The notes under the pieces were generated by a model. The model did not search any database. It was given only the letters and a program-made list of their open reading frames with translations, and was not told where the DNA came from. The position numbers and the translations under genes were made by a program. From Odontesthes bonariensis (taxonomy: Eukaryota; Chordata; Actinopteri; Atheriniformes; Atherinopsidae), in NCBI RefSeq assembly GCF_027942865.1, contig NC_134507.1, positions 35,641,711 through 35,705,710 of the forward strand: 64,000 nt of DNA. The letters run 5' to 3'. This document shows positions 2,941-64,000 of this stretch, piece after piece (within the stretch, counting starts at the first letter, position 1; every line of letters begins with the position of its first letter).

Positions 2941-3547
2941 GCACATGGTCAGTTAGCTTTTTAAAAACGTTTATTTTAAAGAAAACGATCAAAACAAGAG
3001 TTTTTCTGGAAGAGATTTAAATAAGTTCTGAATATGCATAGAAGAGAGGTTACATTTGAGTCTATTTTCTTTGTATGTAATGTACATAGATAATCCATGA
3101 GCCTTGTCAAGCGGTGAAGTTGTAAAGCAATGAGATGAAAAAGTGATCAGAGCTTCATCCTCTGTGGCTGGTTGACTGTTAGAGCTTCCAGCTGCCTCTA
3201 ACTCCCACACCTCAAAAAACAAATGTCCCTCACAGGGTAGACATCTCAGGTGATGTTCTGACTGGGGTGGTTTATAAAATCAATATGTAGAAGTGTTTGT
3301 GTCCTGCACTGTGTACCTGGAAAATACAATTATTGATCCATCACCTACTAACGCTCTCATGCTCTCTCCTTCACAGTGACGGTGCTGCTGTCAACACAAC
3401 TCATGATTAACTTCCGTCACAGAAATGGATGTTAATGACATGATCTTTATCCACAAGGACAATTCTTTCCAATTCTTGAAAAAATACAGTTATATTTACT
3501 TCTGCGCCCTGCATTTCTTTTGTTGAAACATCTGACGATCACCCTGT

Positions 3548-3594
<47 letters not shown>

Positions 3595-3904
3595 GGAAGT
3601 TAACCAGCTTGGGCTGCTGCTGATTGGTTGGCAGACACCTCTGTTTGGTTTTGGCTCTCAGTCTCCATGTTGCTGATTCTGGACCTGCTGAGATGTCCCA
3701 GGCCATTGTTGGCTTTGATCCTCATACATTTAACTTTGTCCTGAGAAAGGACAAGTTCCAAAAAGTCAAACAGGGACTGCTTTTGCATTTGACGTAGTCA
3801 AACTGCATGCACCTGGAGAAGCCAAAAGGCTTACAGCACCTGGTATTCCCAGGCAGTCTCCCATCCAAGTGTTAACCAGGCCCGGCTCTGCTCAGCTTCT
3901 GAGA
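2941..3904. repeat. Solitary copy of the snRNA/5S array spacer
   Basis: 3070-3280 matches 50608-50830, 3450-3740 matches 50900-51176, and 3720-3904 matches the part of each array unit around the inverted 5S. The order is the same: flank, CA run, the TTAACCAGCTTNGGCTGCTG segment, the AAAGTCAAACAGGGACTGC segment, then truncated 5S on the minus strand. Compared with this copy, the array units lack roughly 130 bp between the CA run and the CTGATNCTGGA segment. The match spans two places about 47 kb apart in the same orientation, so this is either a dispersed 5S-bearing repeat or a relic of the array. Confidence 0.7.
3549..3586. repeat. (AC)n microsatellite
   Basis: Pure AC run of about 19 units, in the same place as a shorter interrupted CA run at 50998-51024 in the related flank. 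Confidence 0.95.
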
Positions 3905-3905
3905 A
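3829..3905 (-). pseudogene. Truncated 5S rRNA gene (3' two thirds)
   Basis: Read on the minus strand it begins near 5S nucleotide 42 with CTCAGAAGCTGAGCAGAGCC and runs to GGTGCTGTAAGC. The first third is missing; the internal control region is present but changed (GTTAACACTTGGATGGGAGA for GTTAGTACTTGGATGGGAGA). It shares its breakpoint with the inverted 5S copies in the array. Confidence 0.75.
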
Positions 3906-5744: not shown

Positions 5745-5749
5745 AAAAA
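5745..5749 (-). terminator. Pol III terminator of 7SL
   Basis: Five T residues on the minus strand directly at the end of the 7SL homology (GTCTTTTT). Confidence 0.8.
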
Positions 5750-15596: not shown

Positions 15597-15680
15597 TATG
15601 GTGTCAGAAGTGGGATCTTGAGTTGAGGAGACAGGATTTTTTTTTTCTTTTTGTTACTCCCCCAACAAATCTTTTGAGCC

Positions 15681-20084: not shown

Positions 20085-20110
20085 AGTGAAGACAAAGAAG
20101 TGGGGGGGTG

Positions 20111-38029: not shown

Positions 38030-38268
38030 TTAGTGAAAGAGCAAAAAGCAAGCGTTTACTGCTTAAAAAGCTGAACGTGTGCAGAACACATCAGAGCACA
38101 GTGCTGATAGCTGAGGGCAGTTATAAACGCACCCTCAGCGTTCACGTTTGATTTGTGATATTGAGACCTGTGTGGCTCGGTCTGTCCAGGTCCAGTTAGA
38201 ATATGTTGGTTAGCTTAGAGAAATCTTTTGTGTGAACTTCAAAAGGATCCAAGTCTTCCTCTCTGTCA
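38030..38268. repeat. Right arm of the inverted duplication with 11888-12150
   Basis: Reverse complement match to the intron upstream of the short zinc-finger exon. Duplication therefore covered intron plus exon. Confidence 0.8.
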
Positions 38269-38274
38269 TTGCAG

Positions 38275-38973
38275 AAACATGGAGCCCAAGAGGGATCCAG
38301 ATGGCACTGCTGTAAGGACTGTGGGAAAGTTATCAAACGATCAAATCTGAGGTATCATCAGAGGCTTCATACTGGAGAGAAGCCATACAGCTGTGGTCAG
38401 TGTGGGGCAGCTTTCACTGCATTAGGTAGTCTAAAGATGCACCAACGTATTCATACAGGAGAGAAACCGTTCAGCTGTGGTCAGTGTGGGGCAGCTTTCA
38501 CTCAATTATCTACTCTAAAGAAACACCAACGTATACACACAGGAGAGAAACCGTTCAGCTGTGGTCAGTGTGGGGCAGCTTTCACTCAATTATCTACTCT
38601 AAAGAAACACCAACGTATACACACAGGAGAGAAGCCATACAGCTGTGGTCAGTGTGGGGCAGCTTTCACTCAGTTTGGTAATCTAAAGACACACCAACGT
38701 ATTCACACAGGAGAGAAGCCGTTCAGCTGTGACCAGTGTGGGGCAGCTTTCACTAGATTAGGTAATCTAAAGACACACCAACATATTCACACAGGAGAGA
38801 AACCTTTCAGCTGTGGTCAGTGTGGGGCAGCTTTCACTAGATTAGGTAATCTAACGACACACCAACATATTCACACAGGAGAGAAACCTTTCATCTGTGG
38901 TCAGTGTGGGGCAGCTTTCACTGGATTAGGTCGTCTAAAGAGACACCAACGTAGTCACACTGCAGAGAAATGA
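38275..38973 (+). CDS. C2H2 zinc-finger terminal exon, eight fingers
   Basis: After the acceptor TCATTGCAG the frame reads [20 protein letters not shown] and then eight C2H2 fingers (C-x2-C-x12-H-x3-H) joined by HTGEKP linkers, ending HTAEK and a stop. Finger 1 differs (KRSNLRYH). Helix contact residues (-1, 2, 3, 6) of fingers 2-8 read A/G/S/M, Q/S/T/K twice, Q/G/N/T, R/G/N/T twice and G/G/R/R, and the repeats CGQCGAAFT are almost identical in DNA, a sign of recent finger duplication. The first exon with the start codon is not identified; upstream intron DNA is shared with the inverted copy at 11538-12150. Nuclear DNA binding is the family role; the target is unknown. Confidence 0.85.
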   Translation, partial: KHGAQEGSRWHCCKDCGKVIKRSNLRYHQRLHTGEKPYSCGQCGAAFTALGSLKMHQRIHTGEKPFSCGQCGAAFTQLSTLKKHQRIHTGEKPFSCGQCGAAFTQLSTLKKHQRIHTGEKPYSCGQCGAAFTQFGNLKTHQRIHTGEKPFSCDQCGAAFTRLGNLKTHQHIHTGEKPFSCGQCGAAFTRLGNLTTHQHIHTGEKPFICGQCGAAFTGLGRLKRHQRSHTAEK

Positions 38974-45599: not shown

Positions 45600-46334
45600 T
45601 TTAAGACTCAGCGACCTCTTCATGGTTCCCTGGTGGACAGGACACAGAACACTGGGTTGTGATAGCTGTAATACGTTCTCATGACACCTGAGTGGAGACA
45701 TCGCTGTGGCTGGGAAATGAAAATAAGGTCAAGCAGCGTGTTCCTGTCTGTGGTGGCAGAGGTGATCAGCTCCTTAGACTGAAACACATCTACAACTGGC
45801 TTTGTTGACCTGAGTACCTGATTCTCATTGAAGTCTCCACACACAATAACAGGGTGACAGTCCATCCAAAAGGCTTCCCAGGTTCTCCAGGAACGGTGTC
45901 AGACTGTAGTCAGGAGGTCTGTACACAGCTGCAATCACTGCACAGACTGGAGCCTCAACCTTCAAAGCCACAAACTCCAGATCAGTCACATTCTGCAAAT
46001 ACTGTCTCTCACGCACCTGAATGTGCTTTCTCACATAGACAGCAACCCCGCCACCTGCTCTGCTGGCCATCTGAGGATACTGAGTGTAGGACGTGTGTCT
46101 GTTGCGCTTGAACATGTTGTAGCCGTCCAGATGCAGCCTGTCTGCAACAAAGGAGCCCTGCAGGTGAGTTTCTGTCAGACACAGGACATCTGCCAGGCAC
46201 AGCTCATGATGTCTCCTGATGTCACCGATGTGAGATGGCAGTCCCTCTGTGTTGTGCTGAACAAGGCTCAGAGTGTCGGGCCTGTGTTCTGTACTGTGTT
46301 TAGACTTAAATGTTATAAAATGTAATCTCAGCAA
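45600..46334 (-). mobile_element. LINE fragment, APE-type endonuclease
   Basis: Minus strand: PDTLSLVQHNTEGLPSHIGD, then ADVLCLTETHL, AGGGVAVYVRKHIQ, AVYRPPDYSLTPFLENL, and in another frame VIVCGDFNEN and TTDRNTLLDLIFISQPQRC. These are the endonuclease blocks N, E (ETHL) and D-x-N (GDFNEN) of non-LTR elements. A frame change lies at about 45850. The reverse transcriptase does not follow, so both ends are lost. Confidence 0.8.
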
Positions 46335-46499
46335 GAGACATTATTAAAACTTTAATCAGAGTTCCCCAAAATGACTAATACGGTGCATGATTCTATCATT
46401 AGTTCAATGGATACAGTCAAATTTGCATGAGCTATATACTGACCGAGGGATCGGACCTGTCCTGCATAATGTTAATCTCAGCCTTTTGTGTAAATGGCA

Positions 46500-47748: not shown

Positions 47749-48170
47749 ATACACTAGATTGCCAACAGTATTCACTCACTCATCCAGATAATTAAATTCA
47801 GGGGTTCCCATCACTTCCATGGCCACAGGTGTAGAAATGCAAGCCCCTCGGCATGCAGACTGCTTCTACAAGCATCTGTGAAAGAATGGCTCGCTCTCAG
47901 GAGCTCAGTGGGTTCCAGCGTGGTGCCATGATAGGATGCCACCTGTGCAACAAGTCCAGTGGAGACATTTCCTCGCTCCTAAATGTCCCACAGTCAGCTG
48001 TCAGTGGTGTTAGAACAAAGTGGAAGCGACTGGGAACGCCAGCAGCTCAGCCACCAAGTGGTCGGCCACGTAAAATGACAGAGCGGGGTTTGGAGGTCTG
48101 TAGCAATGGACTCTGCAGAAGGTTGGCGACCTGTCTGCAGAGTCAATTGCTGCAGACCTCCAAACTTCAT
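47749..48170 (+). mobile_element. Tc1/mariner-like deletion derivative
   Basis: Starts TACACTAGATTGCCAACAGT after TA, the classical terminal repeat of fish Tc1-like elements. The frame MARSQELSGFQRGAMIGCHL then SSGDISSLLNVPQSAVSGVR and SGRPRKMTERG is the paired-type helix-turn-helix of Tc1 transposase, followed by a jump to CAATTGCTGCAGACCTCCAAACT from a later part. The DDE core is deleted. The right terminal repeat is not found. Confidence 0.75.
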
Positions 48171-48262
48171 GTGGCCTTTTACATGTTTAAACCAGAGAAA
48201 ACAACTCCTTGTATGTGCCTACCGACTTGGCAAATAAAGCTCATTCTGATCCTGATTAGAAT
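48171..48262 (+). mobile_element. LINE/SINE 3' tail
   Basis: CTACCGACTTGGCAAATAAAGCTCATTCTGATCCTGATTAG is the kind of AATAAAGCTNATTCTGATTCTGAT tail found on many fish LINE and SINE copies. No protein part. Confidence 0.45.
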
Positions 48263-49104
48263 GTGTTTTTAGATTAGATGAATTAGAATGCTTTTTACTT
48301 CTACATTGCTGTAGGGTGTTGTGTGCAGGAAGTCCCCTCCTGCATCCATGTTGGACTTTAAGTGGGTAATCCTGCACTGGCTGCCGAGGTCCAGCTCCTG
48401 GACTGCAGCTTCCCGCCACAGCGTGAGGGAGGCAGAAGCTTTATCCTGTACAGAACACAGTATGAGATGTCAGAACTATAAAGGCACCAGAGATTACTCT
48501 GTAATGTGCAGCCTACAAGTGACCACAGTGAACATATAAACAACCAGCGCCACAGAAAGAGACAGTTAGCACACTCCCATAGACTACTAAGGTACTCACA
48601 GAATATGAAAGTTATCTTATTTTATCTTCCCTTATCTAGAAACCACAGAGGTTGTCCCTCCTCTCCAATCCTCCCGTTCTCTGGTCTTACCTGCTGCAGC
48701 TTCACCTCACGCAGCGGGACCTCCTCTCTCCCACTGCGGACCTTTTTCACAGCTGAGAGCTAAATAAGAACAAGTTCAATCACTTAGTGATCTAATTAGA
48801 CCTAAACATGTCATTGCAACAGCTTTTCTGTAATAAAACATTTCAAATACTGGTAGGCATTACTTTGTCTACCTAAAATGTTTGTATCTCTGAATTACAA
48901 TTAAGCACGGTCATTTATCTGAGTGTATTAGTGTGTTCTTCTGATGAAGACAAATCAGCATACCTGAACAACTTTGCCCTCCAGTGTGAGGAGGCCCTTT
49001 GTCCCCTTCACATTCTTTATAGTTGTGTGTAGGGACGGGGGACAGAGGAGGGCTTTCCTGCAAAGGGGTCCATCCTGCAAACCTTGCAGCACCAACCCCG
49101 CTCC

Positions 49105-49540: not shown

Positions 49541-50600
49541 GCCAATTGCCAATTTATTTTGAAAATAGTAATACCACCTCAAACCAACTTGGTTATGTGT
49601 AGCACACGGAGCAAGACACCTGAGCTCAGCCACTCTGCTGGGAAATAATATGGGCACGGAGCGCAAAAAGAGCGAGATGAGGAGGTAACTGGGCTATATA
49701 GTCCATCCCACCAGCAGTCAATGGCTATTTACCCTTATTGCGGTGTGCAATTAGGGCCGTCATGACTCATAGGATGCGAAAGCATCTATGCTACTACACC
49801 AGCCTTCACCATTTCCCCAAGGAAAGACAGCGCCAGTGCATTATGAACCTCATTTATCCTCCTCTCTGCATCAAACACATTCATGCTGCCTTAACTGAAA
49901 ACTGTCATTTCCACGTTGCAAATTTGAAAGTCAGGCCAAAATGCCATCGCTGTCAATTTGGGGAAAACGGAAAACTCATGCTACAACATTTCAAATGTGA
50001 CACTTTCAAAGTAATTAGGCTTTGGAACTTTTCGAAGGTTTTAAGATAATCACAGGACTGGGAAACCTCCCAAACTCGCCTTAACCATGGCCTGAACAGG
50101 CTAACGTTATGCCTGTTTGGTTCGTTAGCTAGCTAACTAATGCTAACGTTAGCTAGTGAACGCTAACTGTCAGAGCAGTAATTAAAACATATTAACAAAC
50201 ATACTTGCTTGATAACTTACCTTATTTATTCTTCTTCAAAAGAATTAAAAAAAGTGGACTCAGCAGGCTGCCCTCAGTGCCCCGGCCTGTGTGCTGGACT
50301 GCTGCGTTGCTGACATAGACCTAATATACTTTGCTGAGCGGGAGAGACTGAATGTCGCACCATGCACACTTCTTCTTCTTTGAATCCGCAGTGGGAGTGA
50401 GACTGTGTTGCTACTTATTGTTGAGTGAGCTTCACTCTAAATAAAGTCATCTTCACTCTAAACACTAAGTTTTTTGCATTTTTCACCATGCAACTAACTT
50501 TTACTTCATAAATATCAGTCATAAGTGCATATGGTAATTAACCTAGTAAAGTTAACGAATGTATGTATGTCAGGGCAGCTATTGGACTTTACAGTGAAGA
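49541..50600. other. No gene firmly recognised
   Basis: A plus-strand ORF at 49738-50049 has LHHFPKERQRQCIMN and CHRCQFGENGKLMLQHF, faintly THAP- or finger-like but not assignable. 50125-50170 is a cluster of GTTAGC/GCTAAC palindromes. Otherwise unassigned. Confidence 0.3.
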
Positions 50601-50604
50601 TGTA

Positions 50605-51176
50605 TTGTATATAGATAATCCATGAGCCTAGTCAAGCGGTGAAGTTGTAAAGCAATGAGATTGCTGAGATTTTCTCATGAGAATGAGAAAAAAGTGATCA
50701 GAGCTTCATCCTCTGTGGCTGGTTGACTGTTAGAGCTTCCAGCTGCCTCTAACTCCCACACCTCAAAAAACAAATGTCCCTTACAGGGTAGACATCTCAG
50801 GTGATGTTCTGACTGGGGTGGTTTATATAATCTATGTGTATAACTGTTTGTGTTCTACCACCCAGGTATAGACAATAGTGATCCATCGGCATTTTTATCC
50901 ACAAGGACAATTCTTTCCAATTCTTCAAAAAAATACAGTTATATTTACTTCTGCGTCCTGCATGTCTTGTGTTGAAAAATTTGCCGATCACACTGTGACA
51001 CACACACACACACAGACACACAGACACGAGGAAGTTAACCAGCTTCGGCTGCTGCTGATTGGTTGGCAGACACCTCTGTTTCTATTGGCCCTCAGTCTCC
51101 ATGTTTCTGATCCTGGACCTGCTGAGATGTCCCAGGCCATTGTTGGTTTTGATCCTCATACATTTAACTTTGTCCT
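50605..51176. repeat. Left flank of the array, related to 3070-3780
   Basis: Same order and sequence as the solitary spacer copy, with small indels (for example an extra 26 bp after AAAGCAATGAGAT) and a shorter CA run at 50998-51024. It stops at the array junction within the segment CATTTAACTTTGTCCTGAG. Confidence 0.8.
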
Positions 51177-51279
51177 GAGCGGGCGGGAGTGCAAAGTTGT
51201 ACCATCTGAAACGGCTGAAGAGTGCTCACTGCAGCGGGTGGGCGGAGGTGCAAAGTGACGCTTTGTAGGCAAAAAAAGA

Positions 51280-51296
51280 GCACCGCCACAAGTGCG
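51280..51296 (+). promoter_or_regulatory. Candidate PSE of U2 (copy 1; repeated in every unit)
   Basis: GCACCGCCACAAGTGCG at -61 to -45 from the U2 start, the position of the proximal sequence element bound by SNAPc. It resembles the U5 candidate (CTCACCGTGGGG). GC boxes (GAGCGGGCGGGAG) and octamer-like GTGCAAAG motifs lie further upstream, at about -160 and -95, where a distal element is expected. Confidence 0.5.
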
Positions 51297-51340
51297 CATT
51301 GTGCCAGGAAGGGCTCTCGGACGTGAAACAGTGGAGGGTT

Positions 51341-51528
51341 ATCGCTTCTCGGCCTTTTGGCTAAGATCAAGTGTAGTATCTGTTCTTATCAGTTTAATAT
51401 CTGATACGTCCTCTATATGAGGACTACATATTAAATGGATTTTTAGGCACAGGGGTTGAAAAAGGGGCTTGCTCCGTTCACTCCACGCATCGACCCGGTA
51501 CTGCAGTGCCGCCGGGAACGGTGCACTC
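51341..51528 (+). ncRNA. RNU2: U2 snRNA, copy 1
   Basis: 188 nt, the vertebrate length. ATCGCTTCTCGGCCTTTTGG start, the branch-point pairing GTAGTA (in GTGTAGTATCTG), the stem IIa segment, the Sm site GATTTTTAGG, and the 3' stems ending GGAACGGTGCACTC. U2 pairs with the intron branch site and with U6 in the major spliceosome. Compared with mammals the region after the Sm site is changed (CACAGGGGTTGAAAAAGGGG) but can still pair. Pol II type promoter with PSE; no TATA. Base 173 is C. Confidence 0.95.
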
Positions 51529-51895
51529 TTCCCAACTCTTGTGAAATAACAAAACCAGCGGTACATGGTGGTAGTTTCAGGGAGCCATTGTATTCTGACT
51601 TCTAAAATGGAGCTATAATCTTTAGAAAAGACGCAGTTTATGAGCACGTCGTGGGATTGAGCTTCCCTGGTTTCTCTGTATGACCATGAACACCAAACTA
51701 CACACAGAGAACAGAGGAGCTTGACAGACACACACTAAGTTATCTGAGAGTCCCATTTTCAGCTGCAGAGAACAATCACATCAGGGAAGTCGACGTGCAG
51801 GCTCAACATCAGCCTCTCAAGCCAACTCTCTGGTAAAATAGGGGCAACGTATGGTTCCAGCACCTATGTAACACATATTTGTCACGGGGACTGTG

Positions 51896-52014
51896 GCTTA
51901 CGGCCACACCGCCCTGAACACGCCCGATCTCGTCCGAACTCGGAAGCCAAGCAGGGTCGGGCCTGGTTAGTACTTGGATGGGAGACCGCTTGGGAATACC
52001 AGGTGCTGTAAGCA
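51896..52014 (+). rRNA. RN5S: 5S rRNA, copy 1
   Basis: GCTTACGGCCACACCGCCCT to GGTGCTGTAAGC, 118-120 nt, full length. The internal control region is present: box A AAGCCAAGCAGGG (as in Xenopus), intermediate element, and box C GGATGGGAGACCGCTTGGG. Against the fish consensus that I remember, three bases differ in every array copy: 16 (G), 43 (A) and 95 (T, inside box C). T5 follows at 52015-52019 as Pol III terminator. 5S is a structural RNA of the large ribosomal subunit. Whether this variant is the main class or a minor one cannot be told here. Confidence 0.95.
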
Positions 52015-52019
52015 TTTTT
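52015..52019 (+). terminator. Pol III terminator of 5S (copy 1; same in every unit)
   Basis: TTTTT directly after GTAAGCA. The same run follows each of the eight 5S genes. Confidence 0.85.
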
Positions 52020-52236
52020 CTCTCTTCTCTCTGCATGTCTTTTGTTGAAACATCTGTTGATCACCCTGTGATCCATCTTGCTGATCCTGGATCTGCTAAG
52101 GTGTCCCAGGTCATGGTTGCCTTTGATCCTCATACATTTAACTTTGTCCTGACAAAGGAGCAGTTCCAAAAAGTCAAACAGGGACTGCCTTTGCATTTGA
52201 CGCAGTCAAACTGCATGCGCCTGGAGAAGCCAAAAG

Positions 52237-52314
52237 GCTTACAGCACCTGGTATTCCCAGGCGGTCTCCCCATCCAAGTACTAACCAGGCCCGACTCTGC
52301 TTAGCTTCTGAGAT
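52237..52314 (-). pseudogene. Truncated inverted 5S, unit 1
   Basis: On the minus strand: ATCTCAGAAGCTAAGCAGAG to GGTGCTGTAAGC, about nucleotides 42-120 of 5S. The first third is missing. Box A is nearly whole, box C has one extra G (GATGGGGAGACCGCCTGGG), and a T4 run (CCTTTTGGC) follows. Its 3' side faces the complete 5S, 222 bp away, tail to tail. It carries CGCCTGGG where the full array genes have CGCTTGGG, so it is not simply a recent copy of them. Confidence 0.85.
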
Positions 52315-52553
52315 AAAACTCTGGCTTTTAGTCTGCGAAAAGAGAGTGAAAGTGAACTCCACTTTGAGATGGCTCTGGGATTGGGCCGACTGGGAGAATT
52401 GCTTGAAAAAAACCTCTACACCCAATGAGCGGTCAGAACAAAGCCTCAAGACCCCTAGTCTTTTGCACAGAGTAAAAGACAAAGCAGCCATTGAATAGGG
52501 CCCGATTGTTCCTACCTGGTCGGCCGAGGAGCCAGCGTCTCAACCAAGCAAAG

Positions 52554-52570
52554 CTCACCGTGGGGAAGGT
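52554..52570 (+). promoter_or_regulatory. PSE of U5 (copy 1; repeated in every unit)
   Basis: CTCACCGTGGGGAAGGT at -65 to -49 from U5, matching the vertebrate PSE core TCACCNT at the canonical distance. Units 4, 5 and 7 have CTCACCGTGGGCAAGGT. Confidence 0.65.
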
Positions 52571-52618
52571 GGCTATGCCAACTAGCCTGATGCACTGCTC
52601 CCGCAGTGTCAAATACTC

Positions 52619-52738
52619 GTACTCTGGTTTCTCTTCATAACGTACAAGTCTTTCGCCTTTTACTAAAGACTTCCGTGGAGAGCAGCATTAATGAGTTGTT
52701 TCTATTTTTGGAAGGCTTTACCTTTGCGGGTGAAGCCC
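52619..52738 (+). ncRNA. RNU5: U5 snRNA, copy 1
   Basis: GTACTCTGGTTTCTCTTCAT start, then the invariant loop 1 CGCCTTTTACTAAAGA, TTCCGTGGAGAG, the Sm site TATTTTTGG, and a terminal hairpin GGCTTTACC/GGGTGAAGCC (about 9 bp). About 116-120 nt, the normal length. Loop 1 holds the exons during both splicing steps. The variable stem II/III (CAGCATTAATGAGTTGTTTC) differs from the mammalian form, as is usual. A PSE stands 49-65 bp upstream. It is co-oriented with, and 298 bp upstream of, the next U2. Confidence 0.93.
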
Positions 52739-53035
52739 ATTCTGTCTGTGCAAAGGAAATCTTCTTGCTGTGCCAAGTGACTTCTCGGAGTAGAGTCACC
52801 TTATTTCTTGAGACCGTGCCCATGTTCAAAGCTGGAGCGCTAAATTGTTGTTGTTTGAATGGTGCTCAGTGGAGCGGGCGGGAGTGCAAAGTTGTACCAT
52901 CTGAAACGGCTGAAGAGTGCTCACTGCAGCGGGTGGGCGGAGGTGCAAAGTGACGCTTTGTAGGCAAAAAAAGAGCACCGCCACAAGTGCGCATTGTGCC
53001 AGGAAGGGCTCTCGGACGTGAAACAGTGGAGGGTT

Positions 53036-53223
53036 ATCGCTTCTCGGCCTTTTGGCTAAGATCAAGTGTAGTATCTGTTCTTATCAGTTTAATATCTGAT
53101 ACGTCCTCTATATGAGGACTACATATTAAATGGATTTTTAGGCACAGGGGTTGAAAAAGGGGCTTGCTCCGTTCACTCCACGCATCGACCCGGTACTGCA
53201 GTGCCGCCGGGAACGGTGCACTC
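53036..53223 (+). ncRNA. RNU2: U2 snRNA, copy 2
   Basis: Identical to copy 1 (base 173 C). The downstream spacer has GTATTCTGTCTTC instead of GTATTCTGACTTC, as in copies 4 and 7. Confidence 0.95.
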
Positions 53224-53590
53224 TTCCCAACTCTTGTGAAATAACAAAACCAGCGGTACAGGGTGGTAGTTTCAGGGAGCCATTGTATTCTGTCTTCTAA
53301 AATGGAACTATAATCTTTAGAAAAGACGCAGTTTATGAGCACGTCGTGGGATTGAGCTTCCCTGGTTTCTCTGTATGACCATGAACACCAAACTACACAC
53401 AGAGAACAGAGGAGCTTGACAGACACACACTAAGTTATCTGAGAGTCCCATTTTCAGCTGCAGAGAACAATCACATCAGGGAAGTCGACGTGCAGGCACA
53501 ACATCAGCCTCTCAAGCCAACTCTCTGGTAAAATAGGGGCAACGTATGGTTCCAGCACCTATGTAACACATATTTGTCACGGGGACTGTG

Positions 53591-53709
53591 GCTTACGGCC
53601 ACACCGCCCTGAACACGCCCGATCTCGTCCGAACTCGGAAGCCAAGCAGGGTCGGGCCTGGTTAGTACTTGGATGGGAGACCGCTTGGGAATACCAGGTG
53701 CTGTAAGCA
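53591..53709 (+). rRNA. RN5S: 5S rRNA, copy 2
   Basis: Same sequence as copy 1; short TCTCT tract after the terminator. Confidence 0.95.
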
Positions 53710-53931
53710 TTTTTCTCTCTTCTCTCTGCATGTCTTTTGTTGAAACATCTGTTGATCACCCTGTGATCCATCTTGCTGATCCTGGATCTGCTAAGGTGTC
53801 CCAGGTCATGGTTGCCTTTGATACTCATACATTTAACTTTGTCCTGACAAAGGAGCAGTTCCAAAAAGTCAAACAGGGACTGCCTTTGCATTTGACGCAG
53901 TCAAACTGCATGCGCCTGGAGAAGCCAAAAG

Positions 53932-54009
53932 GCTTACAGCACCTGGTATTCCCAGGCGGTCTCCCCATCCAAGTACTAACCAGGCCCGACTCTGCTTAGC
54001 ATCTGAGAT
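53932..54009 (-). pseudogene. Truncated inverted 5S, unit 2
   Basis: As unit 1 but with the GATGCTAAGC variant at the start of box A (A for T on the plus strand, TAGCATCTGAG). Confidence 0.85.
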
Positions 54010-54313
54010 AAAACTCTGGCTTTTAGTCTGCGAAAAGAGAGTGAAAGTGAACTCCACTTTGAGATGGCTCTGGGATTGGGCCGACTGGGAGAATTGCTTG
54101 AAAAAAACCTCTACACCCAATGAGTGGTCAGAACAAAGCCTCAAGACCCCTAGTCTTTTGCACAGAGTAAAAGACAAAGCAGCCATTGAATAGGGCCCGA
54201 TTGTTCCTACCTGGTCGGCCGAGGAGCCAGCGTCTCAACCAAGCAAAGCTCACCGTGGGGAAGGTGGCTATGCCAACTAGCCTGATGCACTGCTCCCGCA
54301 GTGTCAAATACTC

Positions 54314-54433
54314 GTACTCTGGTTTCTCTTCATAACGTACAAGTCTTTCGCCTTTTACTAAAGACTTCCGTGGAGAGCAGCATTAATGAGTTGTTTCTAT
54401 TTTTGGAAGGCTTTACCTTTGCGGGTGAAGCCC
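54314..54433 (+). ncRNA. RNU5: U5 snRNA, copy 2
   Basis: Identical to copy 1. A spacer variant upstream, CAATGAGTGGTC, is private to this unit. Confidence 0.93.
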
Positions 54434-54730
54434 ATTCTGTCTGTGCAAAGGAAATCTTCTTGCTGTGCCAAGTGACTTCTCGGAGTAGAGTCACCTTATT
54501 TCTTGAGACCGTGCCCATGTTCAAAGCTGGAGCGCTAAATTGTTGTTGTTTGAATGGTGCTCAGTGGAGCGGGCGGGAGTGCAAAGTTGTACCATCTGAA
54601 ACGGCTGAAGAGTGCTCACTGCAGCGGGTGGGCGGAGGTGCAAAGTGACGCTTTGTAGGCAAAAAAAGAGCACCGCCACAAGTGCGCATTGTGCCAGGAA
54701 GGGCTCTCGGACGTGAAACAGTGGAGGGTT

Positions 54731-54918
54731 ATCGCTTCTCGGCCTTTTGGCTAAGATCAAGTGTAGTATCTGTTCTTATCAGTTTAATATCTGATACGTC
54801 CTCTATATGAGGACTACATATTAAATGGATTTTTAGGCACAGGGGTTGAAAAAGGGGCTTGCTCCGTTCACTCCACGCATCGACCCGGTACTGCAGTGCC
54901 GCTGGGAACGGTGCACTC
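54731..54918 (+). ncRNA. RNU2: U2 snRNA, copy 3
   Basis: As copy 1 except base 173 T, which turns a G-C pair of the terminal stem into G-U. First unit of the higher-order block. Confidence 0.95.
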
Positions 54919-55285
54919 TTCCCAACTCTTGTGAAATAACAAAACCAGCGGTACAGGGTGGTAGTTTCAGGGAGCCATTGTATTCTGACTTCTAAAATGG
55001 AACTATAATCTTTAGAAAAGACGCAGTTTATGAGCACGTCGTGGGATTGAGCTTCCCTGGTTTCTCTGTATGACCATGAACACCAAACTACACACAGAGA
55101 ACAGAGGAGCTTGACAGACACACACTAAGTTATCTGAGAGTCCCATTTTCAGCTGCAGAGAACAATCACATCAGGGAAGTCGACGTGCAGGCACAACATC
55201 AGCCTCTCAAGCCAACTCTCTGGTAAAATAGGGGCAACGTATGGTTCCAGCACCTATGTAACACATATTTGTCACGGGGACTGTG

Positions 55286-55404
55286 GCTTACGGCCACACC
55301 GCCCTGAACACGCCCGATCTCGTCCGAACTCGGAAGCCAAGCAGGGTCGGGCCTGGTTAGTACTTGGATGGGAGACCGCTTGGGAATACCAGGTGCTGTA
55401 AGCA
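55286..55404 (+). rRNA. RN5S: 5S rRNA, copy 3
   Basis: Same sequence as copy 1; followed by the longer TCTCTTCTCTTCTCT tract. Confidence 0.95.
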
Positions 55405-55631
55405 TTTTTCTCTCTTCTCTTCTCTCTGCATGTCTTTTGTTGAAACATCTGTTGATCACCCTGTGATCCATCTTGCTGATCCTGGATCTGCTAAGGTGTC
55501 CCAGGTCATGGTTGCCTTTGATCCTCATACATTTAACTTTGTCCTGACAAAGGAGCAGTTCCAAAAAGTCAAACAGGGACTGCCTTTGCATTTGACGCAG
55601 TCAAACTGCATGCGCCTGGAGAAGCCAAAAG

Positions 55632-55709
55632 GCTTACAGCACCTGGTATTCCCAGGCGGTCTCCCCATCCAAGTACTAACCAGGCCCGACTCTGCTTAGC
55701 TTCTGAGAT
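55632..55709 (-). pseudogene. Truncated inverted 5S, unit 3
   Basis: Same as unit 1. Confidence 0.85.
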
Positions 55710-56013
55710 AAAACTCTGGCTTTTAGTCTGCGAAAAGAGAGTGAAAGTGAACTCCACTTTGAGATGGCTCTGGGATTGGGCCGACTGGGAGAATTGCTTG
55801 AAAAAAACCTCTACACCCAATGAGCGGTCAGAACAAAGCCTCAAGACCCCTAGTCTTTTGCACAGAGTAAAAGACAAAGCAGCCATTGAATAGGGCCCGA
55901 TTGTTCCTACCTGGTCGGCCGAGGAGCCAGCGTCTCAACCAAGCAAAGCTCACCGTGGGGAAGGTGGCTATGCCAACTAGCCTGATGCACTGCTCCCGCA
56001 GTGTCAAATACTC

Positions 56014-56133
56014 GTACTCTGGTTTCTCTTCATAACGTACAAGTCTTTCGCCTTTTACTAAAGACTTCCGTGGAGAGCAGCATTAATGAGTTGTTTCTAT
56101 TTTTGGAAGGCTTTACCTTTGCGGGTGAAGCCC
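56014..56133 (+). ncRNA. RNU5: U5 snRNA, copy 3
   Basis: Identical RNA. Private T to C in the 3' flank (GTCACCCTATTTC). Confidence 0.93.
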
Positions 56134-56430
56134 ATTCTGTCTGTGCAAAGGAAATCTTCTTGCTGTGCCAAGTGACTTCTCGGAGTAGAGTCACCCTATT
56201 TCTTGAGACCGTGCCCATGTTCAAAGCTGGAGCGCTAAATTGTTGTTGTTTGAATGGTGCTCAGTGGAGCGGGCGGGAGTGCAAAGTTGTACCATCTGAA
56301 ACGGCTGAAGAGTGCTCACTGCAGCGGGTGGGCGGAGGTGCAAAGTGACGCTTTGTAGGCAAAAAAAGAGCACCGCCACAAGTGCGCATTGTGCCAGGAA
56401 GGGCTCTCGGACGTGAAACAGTGGAGGGTT

Positions 56431-56618
56431 ATCGCTTCTCGGCCTTTTGGCTAAGATCAAGTGTAGTATCTGTTCTTATCAGTTTAATATCTGATACGTC
56501 CTCTATATGAGGACTACATATTAAATGGATTTTTAGGCACAGGGGTTGAAAAAGGGGCTTGCTCCGTTCACTCCACGCATCGACCCGGTACTGCAGTGCC
56601 GCCGGGAACGGTGCACTC
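56431..56618 (+). ncRNA. RNU2: U2 snRNA, copy 4
   Basis: Base 173 C. Spacer carries the GGGGAAACG variant (56930) otherwise seen only after copy 7. Confidence 0.95.
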
Positions 56619-56985
56619 TTCCCAACTCTTGTGAAATAACAAAACCAGCGGTACAGGGTGGTAGTTTCAGGGAGCCATTGTATTCTGTCTTCTAAAATGG
56701 AACTATAATCTTTAGAAAAGACGCAGTTTATGAGCACGTCGTGGGATTGAGCTTCCCTGGTTTCTCTGTATGACCATGAACACCAAACTACACACAGAGA
56801 ACAGAGGAGCTTGACAGACACACACTAAGTTATCTGAGAGTCCCATTTTCAGCTGCAGAGAACAATCACATCAGGGAAGTCGACGTGCAGGCACAACATC
56901 AGCCTCTCAAGCCAACTCTCTGGTAAAATAGGGGAAACGTATGGTTCCAGCACCTATGTAACACATATTTGTCACGGGGACTGTG

Positions 56986-57104
56986 GCTTACGGCCACACC
57001 GCCCTGAACACGCCCGATCTCGTCCGAACTCGGAAGCCAAGCAGGGTCGGGCCTGGTTAGTACTTGGATGGGAGACCGCTTGGGAATACCAGGTGCTGTA
57101 AGCA
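56986..57104 (+). rRNA. RN5S: 5S rRNA, copy 4
   Basis: Same sequence as copy 1; short tract. Confidence 0.95.
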
Positions 57105-57326
57105 TTTTTCTCTCTTCTCTCTGCATGTCTTTTGTTGAAACATCTGTTGATCACCCTGTGATCCATCTTGCTGATCCTGGATCTGCTAAGGTGTCCCAGG
57201 TCATGGTTGCCTTTGATACTCATACATTTAACTTTGTCCTGACAAAGGAGCAGTTCCAAAAAGTCAAACAGGGACTGCCTTTGCATTTGACGCAGTCAAA
57301 CTGCATGCGCCTGGAGAAGCCAAAAG

Positions 57327-57404
57327 GCTTACAGCACCTGGTATTCCCAGGCGGTCTCCCCATCCAAGTACTAACCAGGCCCGACTCTGCTTAGCATCTG
57401 AGAT
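57327..57404 (-). pseudogene. Truncated inverted 5S, unit 4
   Basis: Carries the GATGCTAAGC box A variant. Confidence 0.85.
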
Positions 57405-57708
57405 AAAACTCTGGCTTTTAGTCTGCGAAAAGAGAGTGAAAGTGAACTCCACTTTGAGATGGCTCTGGGATTGGGCCGACTGGGAGAATTGCTTGAAAAA
57501 AACCTCTACACCCAATGAGCGGTCAGAACAAAGCCTCAAGACCCCTAGTCTTTTGCACAGAGTAAAAGACAAAGCAGCCATTGAATAGGGCCCGATTGTT
57601 CCTACCTGGTCGGCCGAGGAGCGAGCGTCTTAACCAAGCAAAGCTCACCGTGGGCAAGGTGGCTATACCAACTAGCCTGATGCACTGCTCCCGCAGTGTC
57701 AAATACTC

Positions 57709-57828
57709 GTACTCTGGTTTCTCTTCATAACGTACAAGTCTTTCGCCTTTTACTAAAGACTTCCGTGGAGAGCAGCATTAATGAGTTGTTTCTATTTTTG
57801 GAAGGCTTTACCTTTGCGGGTGAAGCCC
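57709..57828 (+). ncRNA. RNU5: U5 snRNA, copy 4
   Basis: Identical RNA; promoter of the GAGCGAGCGTCTTAACC / GTGGGCAAGG variant. Confidence 0.93.
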
Positions 57829-58125
57829 ATTCTGTCTGTGCAAAGGAAATCTTCTTGCTGTGCCAAGTGACTTCTCGGAGTAGAGTCACCTTATTTCTTG
57901 AGACCGTGCCCATGTTCAAAGCTGGAGCGCTAAATTGTTGTTGTTTGAATGGTGCTCAGTGGAGCGGGCGGGAGTGCAAAGTTGTACCATCTGAAACGGC
58001 TGAAGAGTGCTCACTGCAGCGGGTGGGCGGAGGTGCAAAGTGACGCTTTGTAGGCAAAAAAAGAGCACCGCCACAAGTGCGCATTGTGCCAGGAAGGGCT
58101 CTCGGACGTGAAACAGTGGAGGGTT

Positions 58126-58313
58126 ATCGCTTCTCGGCCTTTTGGCTAAGATCAAGTGTAGTATCTGTTCTTATCAGTTTAATATCTGATACGTCCTCTA
58201 TATGAGGACTACATATTAAATGGATTTTTAGGCACAGGGGTTGAAAAAGGGGCTTGCTCCGTTCACTCCACGCATCGACCCGGTACTGCAGTGCCGCTGG
58301 GAACGGTGCACTC
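58126..58313 (+). ncRNA. RNU2: U2 snRNA, copy 5
   Basis: Base 173 T. Counterpart of copy 8 in the three-unit block. Confidence 0.95.
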
Positions 58314-58680
58314 TTCCCAACTCTTGTGAAATAACAAAACCAGCGGTACAGGGTGGTAGTTTCAGGGAGCCATTGTATTCTGACTTCTAAAATGGAACTA
58401 TAATCTTTAGAAAAGACGCAGTTTATGAGCACGTCGTGGGATTGAGCTTCCCTGGTTTCTCTGTATGACCATGAACACCAAACTACACACAGAGAACAGA
58501 GGAGCTTGACAGACACACACTAAGTTATCTGAGAGTCCCATTTTCAGCTGCAGAGAACAATCACATCAGGGAAGTCGACGTGCAGGCACAACATCAGCCT
58601 CTCAAGCCAACTCTCTGGTAAAATAGGGGCAACGTATGGTTCCAGCACCTATGTAACACATATTTGTCACGGGGACTGTG

Positions 58681-58799
58681 GCTTACGGCCACACCGCCCT
58701 GAACACGCCCGATCTCGTCCGAACTCGGAAGCCAAGCAGGGTCGGGCCTGGTTAGTACTTGGATGGGAGACCGCTTGGGAATACCAGGTGCTGTAAGCA
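58681..58799 (+). rRNA. RN5S: 5S rRNA, copy 5
   Basis: Same sequence as copy 1; long tract. Confidence 0.95.
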
Positions 58800-59026
58800 T
58801 TTTTCTCTCTTCTCTTCTCTCTGCATGTCTTTTGTTGAAACATCTGTTGATCACCCTGTGATCCATCTTGCTGATCCTGGATCTGCTAAGGTGTCCCAGG
58901 TCATGGTTGCCTTTGATACTCATACATTTAACTTTGTCCTGACAAAGGAGCAGTTCCAAAAAGTCAAACAGGGACTGCCTTTGCATTTGACGCAGTCAAA
59001 CTGCATGCGCCTGGAGAAGCCAAAAG

Positions 59027-59104
59027 GCTTACAGCACCTGGTATTCCCAGGCGGTCTCCCCATCCAAGTACTAACCAGGCCCGACTCTGCTTAGCATCTG
59101 AGAT
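59027..59104 (-). pseudogene. Truncated inverted 5S, unit 5
   Basis: Carries the GATGCTAAGC box A variant. Confidence 0.85.
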
Positions 59105-59408
59105 AAAACTCTGGCTTTTAGTCTGCGAAAAGAGAGTGAAAGTGAACTCCACTTTGAGATGGCTCTGGGATTGGGCCGACTGGGAGAATTGCTTGAAAAA
59201 AACCTCTACACCCAATGAGCGGTCAGAACAAAGCCTCAAGACCCCTAGTCTTTTGCACAGAGTAAAAGACAAAGCAGCCATTGAATAGGGCCCGATTGTT
59301 CCTACCTGGTCGGCCGAGGAGCGAGCGTCTTAACCAAGCAAAGCTCACCGTGGGCAAGGTGGCTATACCAACTAGCCTGATGCACTGCTCCCGCAGTGTC
59401 AAATACTC

Positions 59409-59528
59409 GTACTCTGGTTTCTCTTCATAACGTACAAGTCTTTCGCCTTTTACTAAAGACTTCCGTGGAGAGCAGCATTAATGAGTTGTTTCTATTTTTG
59501 GAAGGCTTTACCTTTGCGGGTGAAGCCC
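59409..59528 (+). ncRNA. RNU5: U5 snRNA, copy 5
   Basis: Identical RNA; same promoter variant as copy 4. Confidence 0.93.
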
Positions 59529-59825
59529 ATTCTGTCTGTGCAAAGGAAATCTTCTTGCTGTGCCAAGTGACTTCTCGGAGTAGAGTCACCTTATTTCTTG
59601 AGACCGTGCCCATGTTCAAAGCTGGAGCGCTAAATTGTTGTTGTTTGAATGGTGCTCAGTGGAGCGGGCGGGAGTGCAAAGTTGTACCATCTGAAACGGC
59701 TGAAGAGTGCTCACTGCAGCGGGTGGGCGGAGGTGCAAAGTGACGCTTTGTAGGCAAAAAAAGAGCACCGCCACAAGTGCGCATTGTGCCAGGAAGGGCT
59801 CTCGGACGTGAAACAGTGGAGGGTT

Positions 59826-60013
59826 ATCGCTTCTCGGCCTTTTGGCTAAGATCAAGTGTAGTATCTGTTCTTATCAGTTTAATATCTGATACGTCCTCTA
59901 TATGAGGACTACATATTAAATGGATTTTTAGGCACAGGGGTTGAAAAAGGGGCTTGCTCCGTTCACTCCACGCATCGACCCGGTACTGCAGTGCCGCTGG
60001 GAACGGTGCACTC
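59826..60013 (+). ncRNA. RNU2: U2 snRNA, copy 6
   Basis: Base 173 T. Counterpart of copy 3, 5,095 bp downstream. Confidence 0.95.
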
Positions 60014-60380
60014 TTCCCAACTCTTGTGAAATAACAAAACCAGCGGTACAGGGTGGTAGTTTCAGGGAGCCATTGTATTCTGACTTCTAAAATGGAACTA
60101 TAATCTTTAGAAAAGACGCAGTTTATGAGCACGTCGTGGGATTGAGCTTCCCTGGTTTCTCTGTATGACCATGAACACCAAACTACACACAGAGAACAGA
60201 GGAGCTTGACAGACACACACTAAGTTATCTGAGAGTCCCATTTTCAGCTGCAGAGAACAATCACATCAGGGAAGTCGACGTGCAGGCACAACATCAGCCT
60301 CTCAAGCCAACTCTCTGGTAAAATAGGGGCAACGTATGGTTCCAGCACCTATGTAACACATATTTGTCACGGGGACTGTG

Positions 60381-60499
60381 GCTTACGGCCACACCGCCCT
60401 GAACACGCCCGATCTCGTCCGAACTCGGAAGCCAAGCAGGGTCGGGCCTGGTTAGTACTTGGATGGGAGACCGCTTGGGAATACCAGGTGCTGTAAGCA
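60381..60499 (+). rRNA. RN5S: 5S rRNA, copy 6
   Basis: Same sequence as copy 1; long tract. Confidence 0.95.
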
Positions 60500-60726
60500 T
60501 TTTTCTCTCTTCTCTTCTCTCTGCATGTCTTTTGTTGAAACATCTGTTGATCACCCTGTGATCCATCTTGCTGATCCTGGATCTGCTAAGGTGTCCCAGG
60601 TCATGGTTGCCTTTGATCCTCATACATTTAACTTTGTCCTGACAAAGGAGCAGTTCCAAAAAGTCAAACAGGGACTGCCTTTGCATTTGACGCAGTCAAA
60701 CTGCATGCGCCTGGAGAAGCCAAAAG

Positions 60727-60804
60727 GCTTACAGCACCTGGTATTCCCAGGCGGTCTCCCCATCCAAGTACTAACCAGGCCCGACTCTGCTTAGCTTCTG
60801 AGAT
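60727..60804 (-). pseudogene. Truncated inverted 5S, unit 6
   Basis: Same as units 1 and 3. Confidence 0.85.
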
Positions 60805-61108
60805 AAAACTCTGGCTTTTAGTCTGCGAAAAGAGAGTGAAAGTGAACTCCACTTTGAGATGGCTCTGGGATTGGGCCGACTGGGAGAATTGCTTGAAAAA
60901 AACCTCTACACCCAATGAGCGGTCAGAACAAAGCCTCAAGACCCCTAGTCTTTTGCACAGAGTAAAAGACAAAGCAGCCATTGAATAGGGCCCGATTGTT
61001 CCTACCTGGTCGGCCGAGGAGCCAGCGTCTCAACCAAGCAAAGCTCACCGTGGGGAAGGTGGCTATGCCAACTAGCCTGATGCACTGCTCCCGCAGTGTC
61101 AAATACTC

Positions 61109-61228
61109 GTACTCTGGTTTCTCTTCATAACGTACAAGTCTTTCGCCTTTTACTAAAGACTTCCGTGGAGAGCAGCATTAATGAGTTGTTTCTATTTTTG
61201 GAAGGCTTTACCTTTGCGGGTGAAGCCC
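61109..61228 (+). ncRNA. RNU5: U5 snRNA, copy 6
   Basis: Identical RNA; promoter as in copies 1-3. Confidence 0.93.
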
Positions 61229-61525
61229 ATTCTGTCTGTGCAAAGGAAATCTTCTTGCTGTGCCAAGTGACTTCTCGGAGTAGAGTCACCTTATTTCTTG
61301 AGACCGTGCCCATGTTCAAAGCTGGAGCGCTAAATTGTTGTTGTTTGAATGGTGCTCAGTGGAGCGGGCGGGAGTGCAAAGTTGTACCATCTGAAACGGC
61401 TGAAGAGTGCTCACTGCAGCGGGTGGGCGGAGGTGCAAAGTGACGCTTTGTAGGCAAAAAAAGAGCACCGCCACAAGTGCGCATTGTGCCAGGAAGGGCT
61501 CTCGGACGTGAAACAGTGGAGGGTT

Positions 61526-61713
61526 ATCGCTTCTCGGCCTTTTGGCTAAGATCAAGTGTAGTATCTGTTCTTATCAGTTTAATATCTGATACGTCCTCTA
61601 TATGAGGACTACATATTAAATGGATTTTTAGGCACAGGGGTTGAAAAAGGGGCTTGCTCCGTTCACTCCACGCATCGACCCGGTACTGCAGTGCCGCCGG
61701 GAACGGTGCACTC
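61526..61713 (+). ncRNA. RNU2: U2 snRNA, copy 7
   Basis: Base 173 C. Counterpart of copy 4. Confidence 0.95.
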
Positions 61714-62080
61714 TTCCCAACTCTTGTGAAATAACAAAACCAGCGGTACAGGGTGGTAGTTTCAGGGAGCCATTGTATTCTGTCTTCTAAAATGGAACTA
61801 TAATCTTTAGAAAAGACGCAGTTTATGAGCACGTCGTGGGATTGAGCTTCCCTGGTTTCTCTGTATGACCATGAACACCAAACTACACACAGAGAACAGA
61901 GGAGCTTGACAGACACACACTAAGTTATCTGAGAGTCCCATTTTCAGCTGCAGAGAACAATCACATCAGGGAAGTCGACGTGCAGGCACAACATCAGCCT
62001 CTCAAGCCAACTCTCTGGTAAAATAGGGGAAACGTATGGTTCCAGCACCTATGTAACACATATTTGTCACGGGGACTGTG

Positions 62081-62199
62081 GCTTACGGCCACACCGCCCT
62101 GAACATGCCCGATCTCGTCCGAACTCGGAAGCCAAGCAGGGTCGGGCCTGGTTAGTACTTGGATGGGAGACCGCTTGGGAATACCAGGTGCTGTAAGCA
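62081..62199 (+). rRNA. RN5S: 5S rRNA, copy 7
   Basis: As copy 1 but with a private C to T at base 26 (62106, GAACATGCCC). Confidence 0.93.
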
Positions 62200-62421
62200 T
62201 TTTTCTCTCTTCTCTCTGCATGTCTTTTGTTGAAACATCTGTTGATCACCCTGTGATCCATCTTGCTGATCCTGGATCTGCTAAGGTGTCCCAGGTCATG
62301 GTTGCCTTTGATACTCATACATTTAACTTTGTCCTGACAAAGGAGCAGTTCCAAAAAGTCAAACAGGGACTGCCTTTGCATTTGACGCAGTCAAACTGCA
62401 TGCGCCTGGAGAAGCCAAAAG

Positions 62422-62499
62422 GCTTACAGCACCTGGTATTCCCAGGCGGTCTCCCCATCCAAGTACTAACCAGGCCCGACTCTGCTTAGCATCTGAGAT
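62422..62499 (-). pseudogene. Truncated inverted 5S, unit 7
   Basis: Carries the GATGCTAAGC box A variant. Confidence 0.85.
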
Positions 62500-62803
62500 A
62501 AAACTCTGGCTTTTAGTCTGCGAAAAGAGAGTGAAAGTGAACTCCACTTTGAGATGGTTCTGGGATTGGGCCGACTGGGAGAATTGCTTGAAAAAAACCT
62601 CTACACCCAATGAGCGGTCAGAACAAAGCCTCAAGACCCCTAGTCTTTTGCACAGAGTAAAAGACAAAGCAGCCACTGAATAGGGCCCGATTGTTCCTAC
62701 CTGGTCGGCCGAGGAGCGAGCGTCTTAACCAAGCAAAGCTCACCGTGGGCAAGGTGGCTATACCAACTAGCCTGATGCACTGCTCCCGCAGTGTCAAATA
62801 CTC

Positions 62804-62923
62804 GTACTCTGGTTTCTCTTCATAACGTACAAGTCTTTCGCCTTTTACTAAAGACTTCCGTGGAGAGCAGCATTAATGAGTTGTTTCTATTTTTGGAAGG
62901 CTTTACCTTTGCGGGTGAAGCCC
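62804..62923 (+). ncRNA. RNU5: U5 snRNA, copy 7
   Basis: Identical RNA; promoter variant as in copies 4 and 5. Upstream spacer has private changes (GAGATGGTTCTGG, GCAGCCACTGAAT). Confidence 0.93.
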
Positions 62924-63220
62924 ATTCTGTCTGTGCAAAGGAAATCTTCTTGCTGTGCCAAGTGACTTCTCGGAGTAGAGTCACCTTATTTCTTGAGACC
63001 GTGCCCATGTTCAAAGCTGGAGCGCTAAATTGTTGTTGTTTGAATGGTGCTCAGTGGAGCGGGCGGGAGTGCAAAGTTGTACCATCTGAAACGGCTGAAG
63101 AGTGCTCACTGCAGCGGGTGGGCGGAGGTGCAAAGTGACGCTTTGTAGGCAAAAAAAGAGCACCGCCACAAGTGCGCATTGTGCCAGGAAGGGCTCTCGG
63201 ACGTGAAACAGTGGAGGGTT

Positions 63221-63408
63221 ATCGCTTCTCGGCCTTTTGGCTAAGATCAAGTGTAGTATCTGTTCTTATCAATTTAATATCTGATACGTCCTCTATATGA
63301 GGACTACATATTAAATGGATTTTTAGGCACAGGGGTTGAAAAAGGGGCTTGCTCCGTTCACTCCACGCATCGACCCGGTACTGCAGTGCCGCTGGGAACG
63401 GTGCACTC
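63221..63408 (+). ncRNA. RNU2: U2 snRNA, copy 8
   Basis: Base 173 T, and a private G to A at base 52 (63272) within the conserved TATCAGTTTAATATCTGA stem-loop II region, so this copy may be weaker. Confidence 0.93.
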
Positions 63409-63775
63409 TTCCCAACTCTTGTGAAATAACAAAACCAGCGGTACAGGGTGGTAGTTTCAGGGAGCCATTGTATTCTGACTTCTAAAATGGAACTATAATC
63501 TTTAGAAAAGACGCAGTTTATGAGCACGTCGTGGGATTGAGCTTCCCTGGTTTCTCTGTATGACCATGAACACCAAACTACACACAGAGAACAGAGGAGC
63601 TTGACAGACACACACTAAGTTATCTGAGAGTCCCATTTTCAGCTGCAGAGAACAATCACATCAGGGAAGTCGACGTGCAGGCACAACATCAGCCTCTCAA
63701 GCCAACTCTCTGGTAAAATAGGGGCAACGTATGGTTCCAGCACCTATGTAACACATATTTGTCACGGGGACTGTG

Positions 63776-63894
63776 GCTTACGGCCACACCGCCCTGAACA
63801 CGCCCGATCTCGTCCGAACTCGGAAGCCAAGCAGGGTCGGGCCTGGTTAGTACTTGGATGGGAGACCGCTTGGGAATACCAGGTGCTGTAAGCA
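63776..63894 (+). rRNA. RN5S: 5S rRNA, copy 8
   Basis: Same sequence as copy 1; long tract; last complete gene in the window. Confidence 0.95.
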
Positions 63895-64000
63895 TTTTTC
63901 TCTCTTCTCTTCTCTCTGCATGTCTTTTGTTGAAACATCTGTTGATCACCCTGTGATCCATCTTGCTGATCCTGGATCTGCTAAGGTGTCCCAGGTCATG

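Follow-up and report, generated by a model that had tools for sequence, protein, structure and literature searches.

Genes for the U2 and U5 small nuclear RNAs (snRNAs) and for 5S ribosomal RNA (rRNA) are carried together in a tandem array in a 64,000-nt stretch of the genome of the fish Odontesthes bonariensis (contig NC_134507.1 of assembly GCF_027942865.1, positions 35,641,711-35,705,710 of the forward strand; hereafter the window), and each complete unit of the array also contains a truncated, inverted 5S sequence. Here, we present evidence that this inverted sequence is one end of a longer element, which we call E and which is also found outside the array. The array very probably represents the tandem amplification of a composite unit, made up of linked U2 and U5 genes that are separated by a 5S gene and part of an older E; the inverted 5S would then be a relic copied along with the remainder of the unit. 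The gene order, the copies of E outside the array, the mosaic composition of the units and a near-duplicate block of three units can all be read directly in the assembled DNA.

The window stops inside the array, and the comparisons described below cover the seven complete units and the 942 bp of an eighth that it contains. RNA genes were called with Rfam cmscan, using gathering scores of 46, 38 and 40 bits for U2, 5S and U5, respectively. The array and the genes of its first unit are:

51179..64000, + strand: tandem array of seven complete 1,695/1,700-bp units and 942 bp of an eighth
51341..51531, + strand: U2 snRNA gene of unit 1 (RF00004); the others start at 53036, 54731, 56431, 58126, 59826, 61526 and 63221
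51896..52014, + strand: 5S rRNA gene of unit 1 (RF00001); the others start at 53591, 55286, 56986, 58681, 60381, 62081 and 63776
52619..52731, + strand: U5 snRNA gene of unit 1 (RF00020); the others start at 54314, 56014, 57709, 59409, 61109 and 62804

All array genes recognized by Rfam, which extend from 51341 to 63894, are on the + strand, with U2 and U5 in the same direction within each unit: eight U2 (177.2-185.9 bits), eight 5S (109.9-112.3 bits) and seven U5 (86.1 bits). The Rfam search gave no U1 match in the array. The units start at 51179, 52874, 54569, 56269, 57964, 59664, 61364 and 63059, and successive U2 genes are spaced by 1695, 1695, 1700, 1695, 1700, 1700 and 1695 bp, a single TCTCT indel just after the 5S gene being the source of the 5-bp difference. 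Intact 5S and snRNA genes thus alternate in a tandem unit, as in a linked 5S-snRNA array. An initial annotation of this DNA had described units of these two lengths with U2, 5S and U5 on one strand, and a linked array mixing genes of RNA polymerase II (Pol II) and RNA polymerase III (Pol III); the Rfam gene counts and the fixed spacing bear out the former and the Rfam gene identities the latter, with expression being predicted only. The array start of 51177 given there lies 2 bp to the left of the first unit, so that the array stands and its first base becomes 51179. Tandem Repeats Finder does not list the array because the longest period of that program is 500.

Inspection of the sequences flanking the genes suggests that each possesses its own control signals. 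In unit 2, these include two sites resembling proximal sequence elements (PSEs):

52974..52993, + strand: PSE-like site of the U2 gene, AGCACCGCCACAAGTGCGCA, with CACCG at -60
54249..54268, + strand: PSE-like site of the U5 gene, CTCACCGTGGGGAAGGTGGC, with CACCG at -62

By their resemblance to the PSE consensus, we take these CACCG sites to be putative PSEs. Their cores are at or just outside the range of approximately 40-60 nt upstream in which the PSE is placed in fish U2-U5 units, and both a PSE and a 3' box have been assigned to U2 as well as to U5 in Plectorhinchus mediterraneus (PMC3464664, excerpts). GGGCGG occurs at -160 and -101 of U2, the T-run terminator ATTTTT lies directly 3' of the 5S gene (shown for unit 2), and the 3' stem-loop of U5 may extend a few bases past the end of the Rfam match. 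One non-standard pair is flagged in the Rfam alignment of U2. To judge from these motifs, the control signals fit independent Pol II (U2, U5) and Pol III (5S) genes. Since U2 and U5 have PSE-like sites and 5S a terminator of their own, co-regulation, a question raised in the initial annotation from the shared unit, is not required to explain that unit.

The inverted 5S sequence was traced by BLASTN of one array unit against the 51,178 bases to the left of the array, and by a direct alignment of E to a target consisting of the left flank and the unit sequence, two pieces joined beforehand. This long local alignment forces weak matches beyond 3075-3904, and only the blocks that BLASTN also gives were used. 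The copies of E are:

3075..3904, + strand: uninterrupted E outside the array, approximately 830 bp, whose right end is an inverted partial 5S
50600..51178, + strand: truncated E that flanks the array on its left and stops where unit 1, and with it the first U2 promoter, begins
52023..52313, + strand: part of unit 1 derived from E, with the inverted 5S fragment at its right end and without the approximately 114 bp that correspond to 3550-3663
52232..52312, - strand: inverted partial 5S of unit 1, from 5S position ~43 to the 3' end, placed by its offset from the unit-2 match at 53927-54007

In units 2-7 the E matches carrying the inverted 5S end at 54008, 55708, 57403, 59103, 60803 and 62498. 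The inverted partial 5S reported in the initial annotation is present in all seven complete units, the eighth running out of the window before that point. In unit 2 the fragment is 91.4% identical to the 3' part of the array 5S over 81 columns (BLASTN) and scores 34.9 bits against the Rfam 5S model, below the 38-bit gathering score; the fragment in the outside E, matched on the - strand at 3828-3954, scores 29.5 bits, likewise below gathering. The unit segment pairs with the outside E in two BLASTN blocks, 52023-52071 with 3501-3549 and 52072-52313 with 3664-3904, the second at 90.9-91.7% identity depending on the unit. Because the fragment recurs with its flank at 3664-3904, beyond the array, and the sequence flanking the array on the left is a further copy of E, the earlier view of the truncated inverted 5S as the distinctive part of a fixed four-part unit is not supported.

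The fragments in the unit and in the 3664 copy both begin near 5S position 43, and they have T43, A47, T53, A60 and C95 in common, the corresponding bases of the array 5S being A, G, C, G and T; these five bases, together with the common truncation, argue that the fragments share an ancestor other than the array 5S. Between the unit and the outside copy, 75 of the 81 aligned bases of the fragment are equal, with one gap, as are 145/160 in the rest of the shared E segment. Divergence of the fragment is therefore similar to that of the remaining E sequence, with no sign of extra constraint. The array 5S (53591-53709), distinguished from the two E fragments by positions 43, 47, 53, 60 and 95, may represent one type of 5S among several in the genome.

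The left edge of the array falls within E. In the direct alignment, 3075-3904 is continuous through the left flank to 51178 and then proceeds into unit sequence from 52153; by BLASTN, 50600-50856 matches 3075-3305 at 85.6% and 50891-51179 matches 3443-3745 at 89.1%. Over the 81 bp common to the three E copies, the left flank agrees with the 3664 copy at 78/81 positions, while unit 2 agrees with the 3664 copy at 72/81 and with the left flank at 71/81. The left flank is therefore a sister of the outside copy rather than an offshoot or spill-over of the array. At the edge itself, CCTGA is followed by GCGGGCGGG, the 3664 copy continues with CCTGAGAAAGG and the unit junction reads AGTGGAGCGGGCGG; GAG is common to the 3664-copy continuation and the unit junction at the join. 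As far as these few bases can tell, the edge would fit end joining with a 3-bp microhomology.

The nature of E is less clear. No Pfam domain reached cut-off in three translated pieces of E (one match, to uDENN, fell below it with an expectation value of 0.071), and no target-site duplication was clear by eye. A 22-mer of E had 0 matches in virus and prokaryote contig collections and a 38-mer of the array 5S had 0 matches in the virus contig collection, results that are uninformative for fish. One candidate class is that of 5S-derived short interspersed elements (SINEs) of the SINE3-like kind, which have a complete 5S-derived 5' head including the promoter, a tail, target-site duplications and a high copy number. 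Target-specific transposons of RNA genes, which have a coding sequence of their own and insert at a fixed position within the gene, are known as well, among them Dada, Mutsu for 5S and Keno for U2 (PMC3706591, excerpts), and E may derive from either class.

The units of the array are not identical, and their differences are informative. Among 19 variable sites, two are in U2, one in 5S, one in the inverted 5S, none in U5 and 15 in the spacers. The variants listed in the initial annotation are all found: U2 173 is C in units 1, 2, 4 and 7 and T in units 3, 5, 6 and 8, U2 52 is A in unit 8 only, and 5S 26 is T in unit 7 only. All four combinations occur in 16 of the 45 pairs of 10 informative sites; therefore, units have exchanged parts or some sites have mutated twice. 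In addition, one block of three units resembles the next:

54569..64000, + strand: three-unit block (units 3-5) and, shifted by 5,095 bp, a nearly identical block (units 6-8), with 5 mismatches over 4,337 positions

At offsets of 1, 2, 4 and 5 units there are 3.5 to 6.0 differences per kb. Pair 3-6 differs at 1/1,696 sites and pair 4-7 at 3/1,696. To judge from these alignments, the simplest account of the three-unit near-copy would be unequal exchange by three units. The units are thus alike, mosaic and locally duplicated, as in concerted evolution. Separately, the U2 of unit 8 (63221-63411), which has A at position 52, scores lowest of all eight in Rfam (177.2 bits). According to the Rfam structure line, this position forms the innermost pair of stem 47-52/61-66, and the G to A change puts A opposite C, so that this conserved stem would be predicted to lose that pair.

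These observations suggest the following sequence of events. The inverted fragment would be the relic of another 5S gene that was part of E before the array existed; a 5S gene and a piece of E would have come to sit between linked U2 and U5 genes, and the entire unit, relic included, would have been amplified together. Unequal exchange and gene conversion would keep the units alike. Each gene is most likely transcribed alone: Pol II would transcribe U2 and U5 under the direction of their PSEs, and Pol III would read 5S, directed by the internal promoter and ending at the T-run. The transcription of the genes, the order of these events and the neutrality of the relic are what we infer beyond the arrangement itself. 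U2 is followed by U5 in one tandem unit in P. mediterraneus, as here; in that species 5S is absent from the U2-U5 spacer, which measures 533-570 bp (PMC3464664, excerpts), whereas the spacer here is 1,087 bp. Removal of the 418 bp from the 5S gene through the inverted fragment (unit 2 coordinates) leaves 669 bp, in rough agreement with an insertion into a U2-U5 unit.

Several observations weigh against this scheme. The U5-U2 spacer, at 304 bp, is a misfit to the 168-178 bp of P. mediterraneus (PMC3464664, excerpts). The range expected for a distal sequence element holds no octamer with up to one mismatch allowed, and the array 5S contains one pair marked as non-standard in the Rfam alignment. 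Only one copy of E in the window is clear of the array, and this copy could also be due to a local duplication. Identity to the array 5S is somewhat higher for the inverted fragment of the unit (91.4%) than for the outside fragment (87.5%), and some exchange with the array 5S within the unit is therefore possible. Pairs 3-8, 5-8 and 6-8 each differ at 1/937 sites; because units 3, 5, 6 and 8 are alike where unit 8 covers them, pairs 3-6 and 4-7 are the main support for the block duplication. An assembly artefact among units this similar is a possible alternative to the exchange.

Other explanations assign the inverted 5S a different origin or a function. It might have arisen inside the array by an inverted (palindromic) duplication of the array's own 5S, to which it is 91.4% identical; the outside copy, however, has the identical truncation, the same flank and the five bases that the array 5S lacks, all of which disfavor this origin and make it highly improbable. 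It might instead be functional, a cruciform or hairpin formed with the 5S gene stalling replication and thereby promoting the breaks and template switches that amplify and homogenize the array. Arms of approximately 80 bp, 91% complementary and approximately 220 bp apart, are present in every complete unit, and the left edge of the array falls inside a copy of E. The strand from 5S through the inverted fragment has a predicted fold of -220 kcal/mol compared with -124.7 for shuffled sequences (z = -18.9; 0/100 shuffles as good), in which 73 bases of 5S pair with the inverted arm, and a hypothetical read-through transcript from 5S into the fragment would form a long hairpin, as would any such inverted repeat. 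The strong fold is, however, a consequence of the inverted repeat itself. The fragment at 3824-3903 exists with neither a full 5S nor an array alongside, and the fragment is not extra conserved between copies, so that we judge such a function decidedly unlikely.

Two further proposals concern the linkage. E, with its 5S fragment, might have been a recombination or settling site for 5S and snRNA units, homology or a hairpin aiding both the entry of 5S into the U2-U5 unit and the placement of the array in another E copy; this is unlikely, but if true, the inverted repeat would itself drive growth of the array, and the right end of the array would be expected to carry the part of E that is missing at the left. 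Alternatively, the linkage itself may have been selected, one amplification unit keeping U2, 5S and U5 in step in dosage or in one nuclear body. All three genes look intact in Rfam and only three of the 19 variable sites are within their 423 bp, but the genes use two polymerases and separate control signals. Moreover, U2-U5 and 5S are on different chromosomes in P. mediterraneus and such a lack of synteny is said to be the commonest state in fish (PMC3464664, excerpts), and U2 of Halobatrachus is unlinked to other U snRNA genes (PMC3544641, excerpts). Selection for linkage is, on this evidence, very unlikely, and we favor the composite unit carrying a relic of E.

The remainder of the window contains several unrelated features. 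A young-looking long terminal repeat (LTR) element at 14912-20794 is bounded by 685-bp direct repeats that are 99.85% identical, between which lies one open frame of 1,468 codons (15678-20084). Its Pfam domains are, in order, SCAN, protease, integrase, reverse transcriptase and RNase H, with the integrase ahead of the reverse transcriptase, an order reminiscent of Gmr1-like Ty3/gypsy elements. Segments resembling C2H2 zinc fingers form an inverted pair (11541-12140 and 38042-38628; 91.0% over 600 columns), with open reading frames at 11538-11936 and 38236-38973 that were assigned by eye only. A full-length Metazoan signal recognition particle RNA is found by Rfam on the - strand at 5746-6044 (210.8 bits), and short-period direct repeats at 31798-32161 are accompanied on each strand by open frames that are long, overlap and have a simple composition. 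Pfam also marks three pieces of mobile-element-like genes, by a BED zinc finger at 4767-5111 (expectation value 3.4e-09), an endonuclease/exonuclease domain at 45825-46340 (6.8e-08) and a Sleeping Beauty helix-turn-helix at 47835-48272 (2.4e-06, below cut-off).

The locus alone leaves existing knowledge of U2, 5S and U5 unchanged. It is nonetheless a readable case of unrelated RNA genes becoming one amplification unit, with the array edge, a donor-like element and mosaic units all within one assembled stretch. The array 5S variants A43, C53 and T95 and the differences at U2 52, U2 173 and 5S 26 make copy-specific expression readable from RNA data.

By their titles, Manchado et al. 2006 reportedly describe 5S-U1-U2-U5 linkage in Solea senegalensis, Martins et al. 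2002 inverted 5S sequences among tilapia 5S repeats, and Cross and Rebordinos 2005 5S-U2 linkage in Crassostrea oysters. If so, tilapia resembles the present array in having an inverted 5S sequence among fish 5S repeat units, and Crassostrea in having 5S and U2 in one tandem array, albeit in another phylum and with U5 not in the title. The phrase 'inverted 5S' had no match in the literature searched, which does not show the arrangement to be unpublished. Separate snRNA and ribosomal loci are the most common in fish, and U2-U5 linkage is a common situation among the fish studied (PMC3464664, excerpts); the toadfish Halobatrachus is described without such linkage (PMC3544641, excerpts). In Antarctic fish, 5S is inserted in the 45S spacer and expressed in ovary and early embryo (PMC10138776, excerpts). 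As the initial annotation had stated, linkage of 5S to snRNA genes in fish is itself not new: close linkage of 5S, U1, U2 and U5 is documented in S. senegalensis (PMC3464664, excerpts), which is like the present array in joining 5S with U2 and U5 but differs from it in including U1. As far as our searches go, then, the exact unit of O. bonariensis is new, and the type of array to which it belongs is already known.

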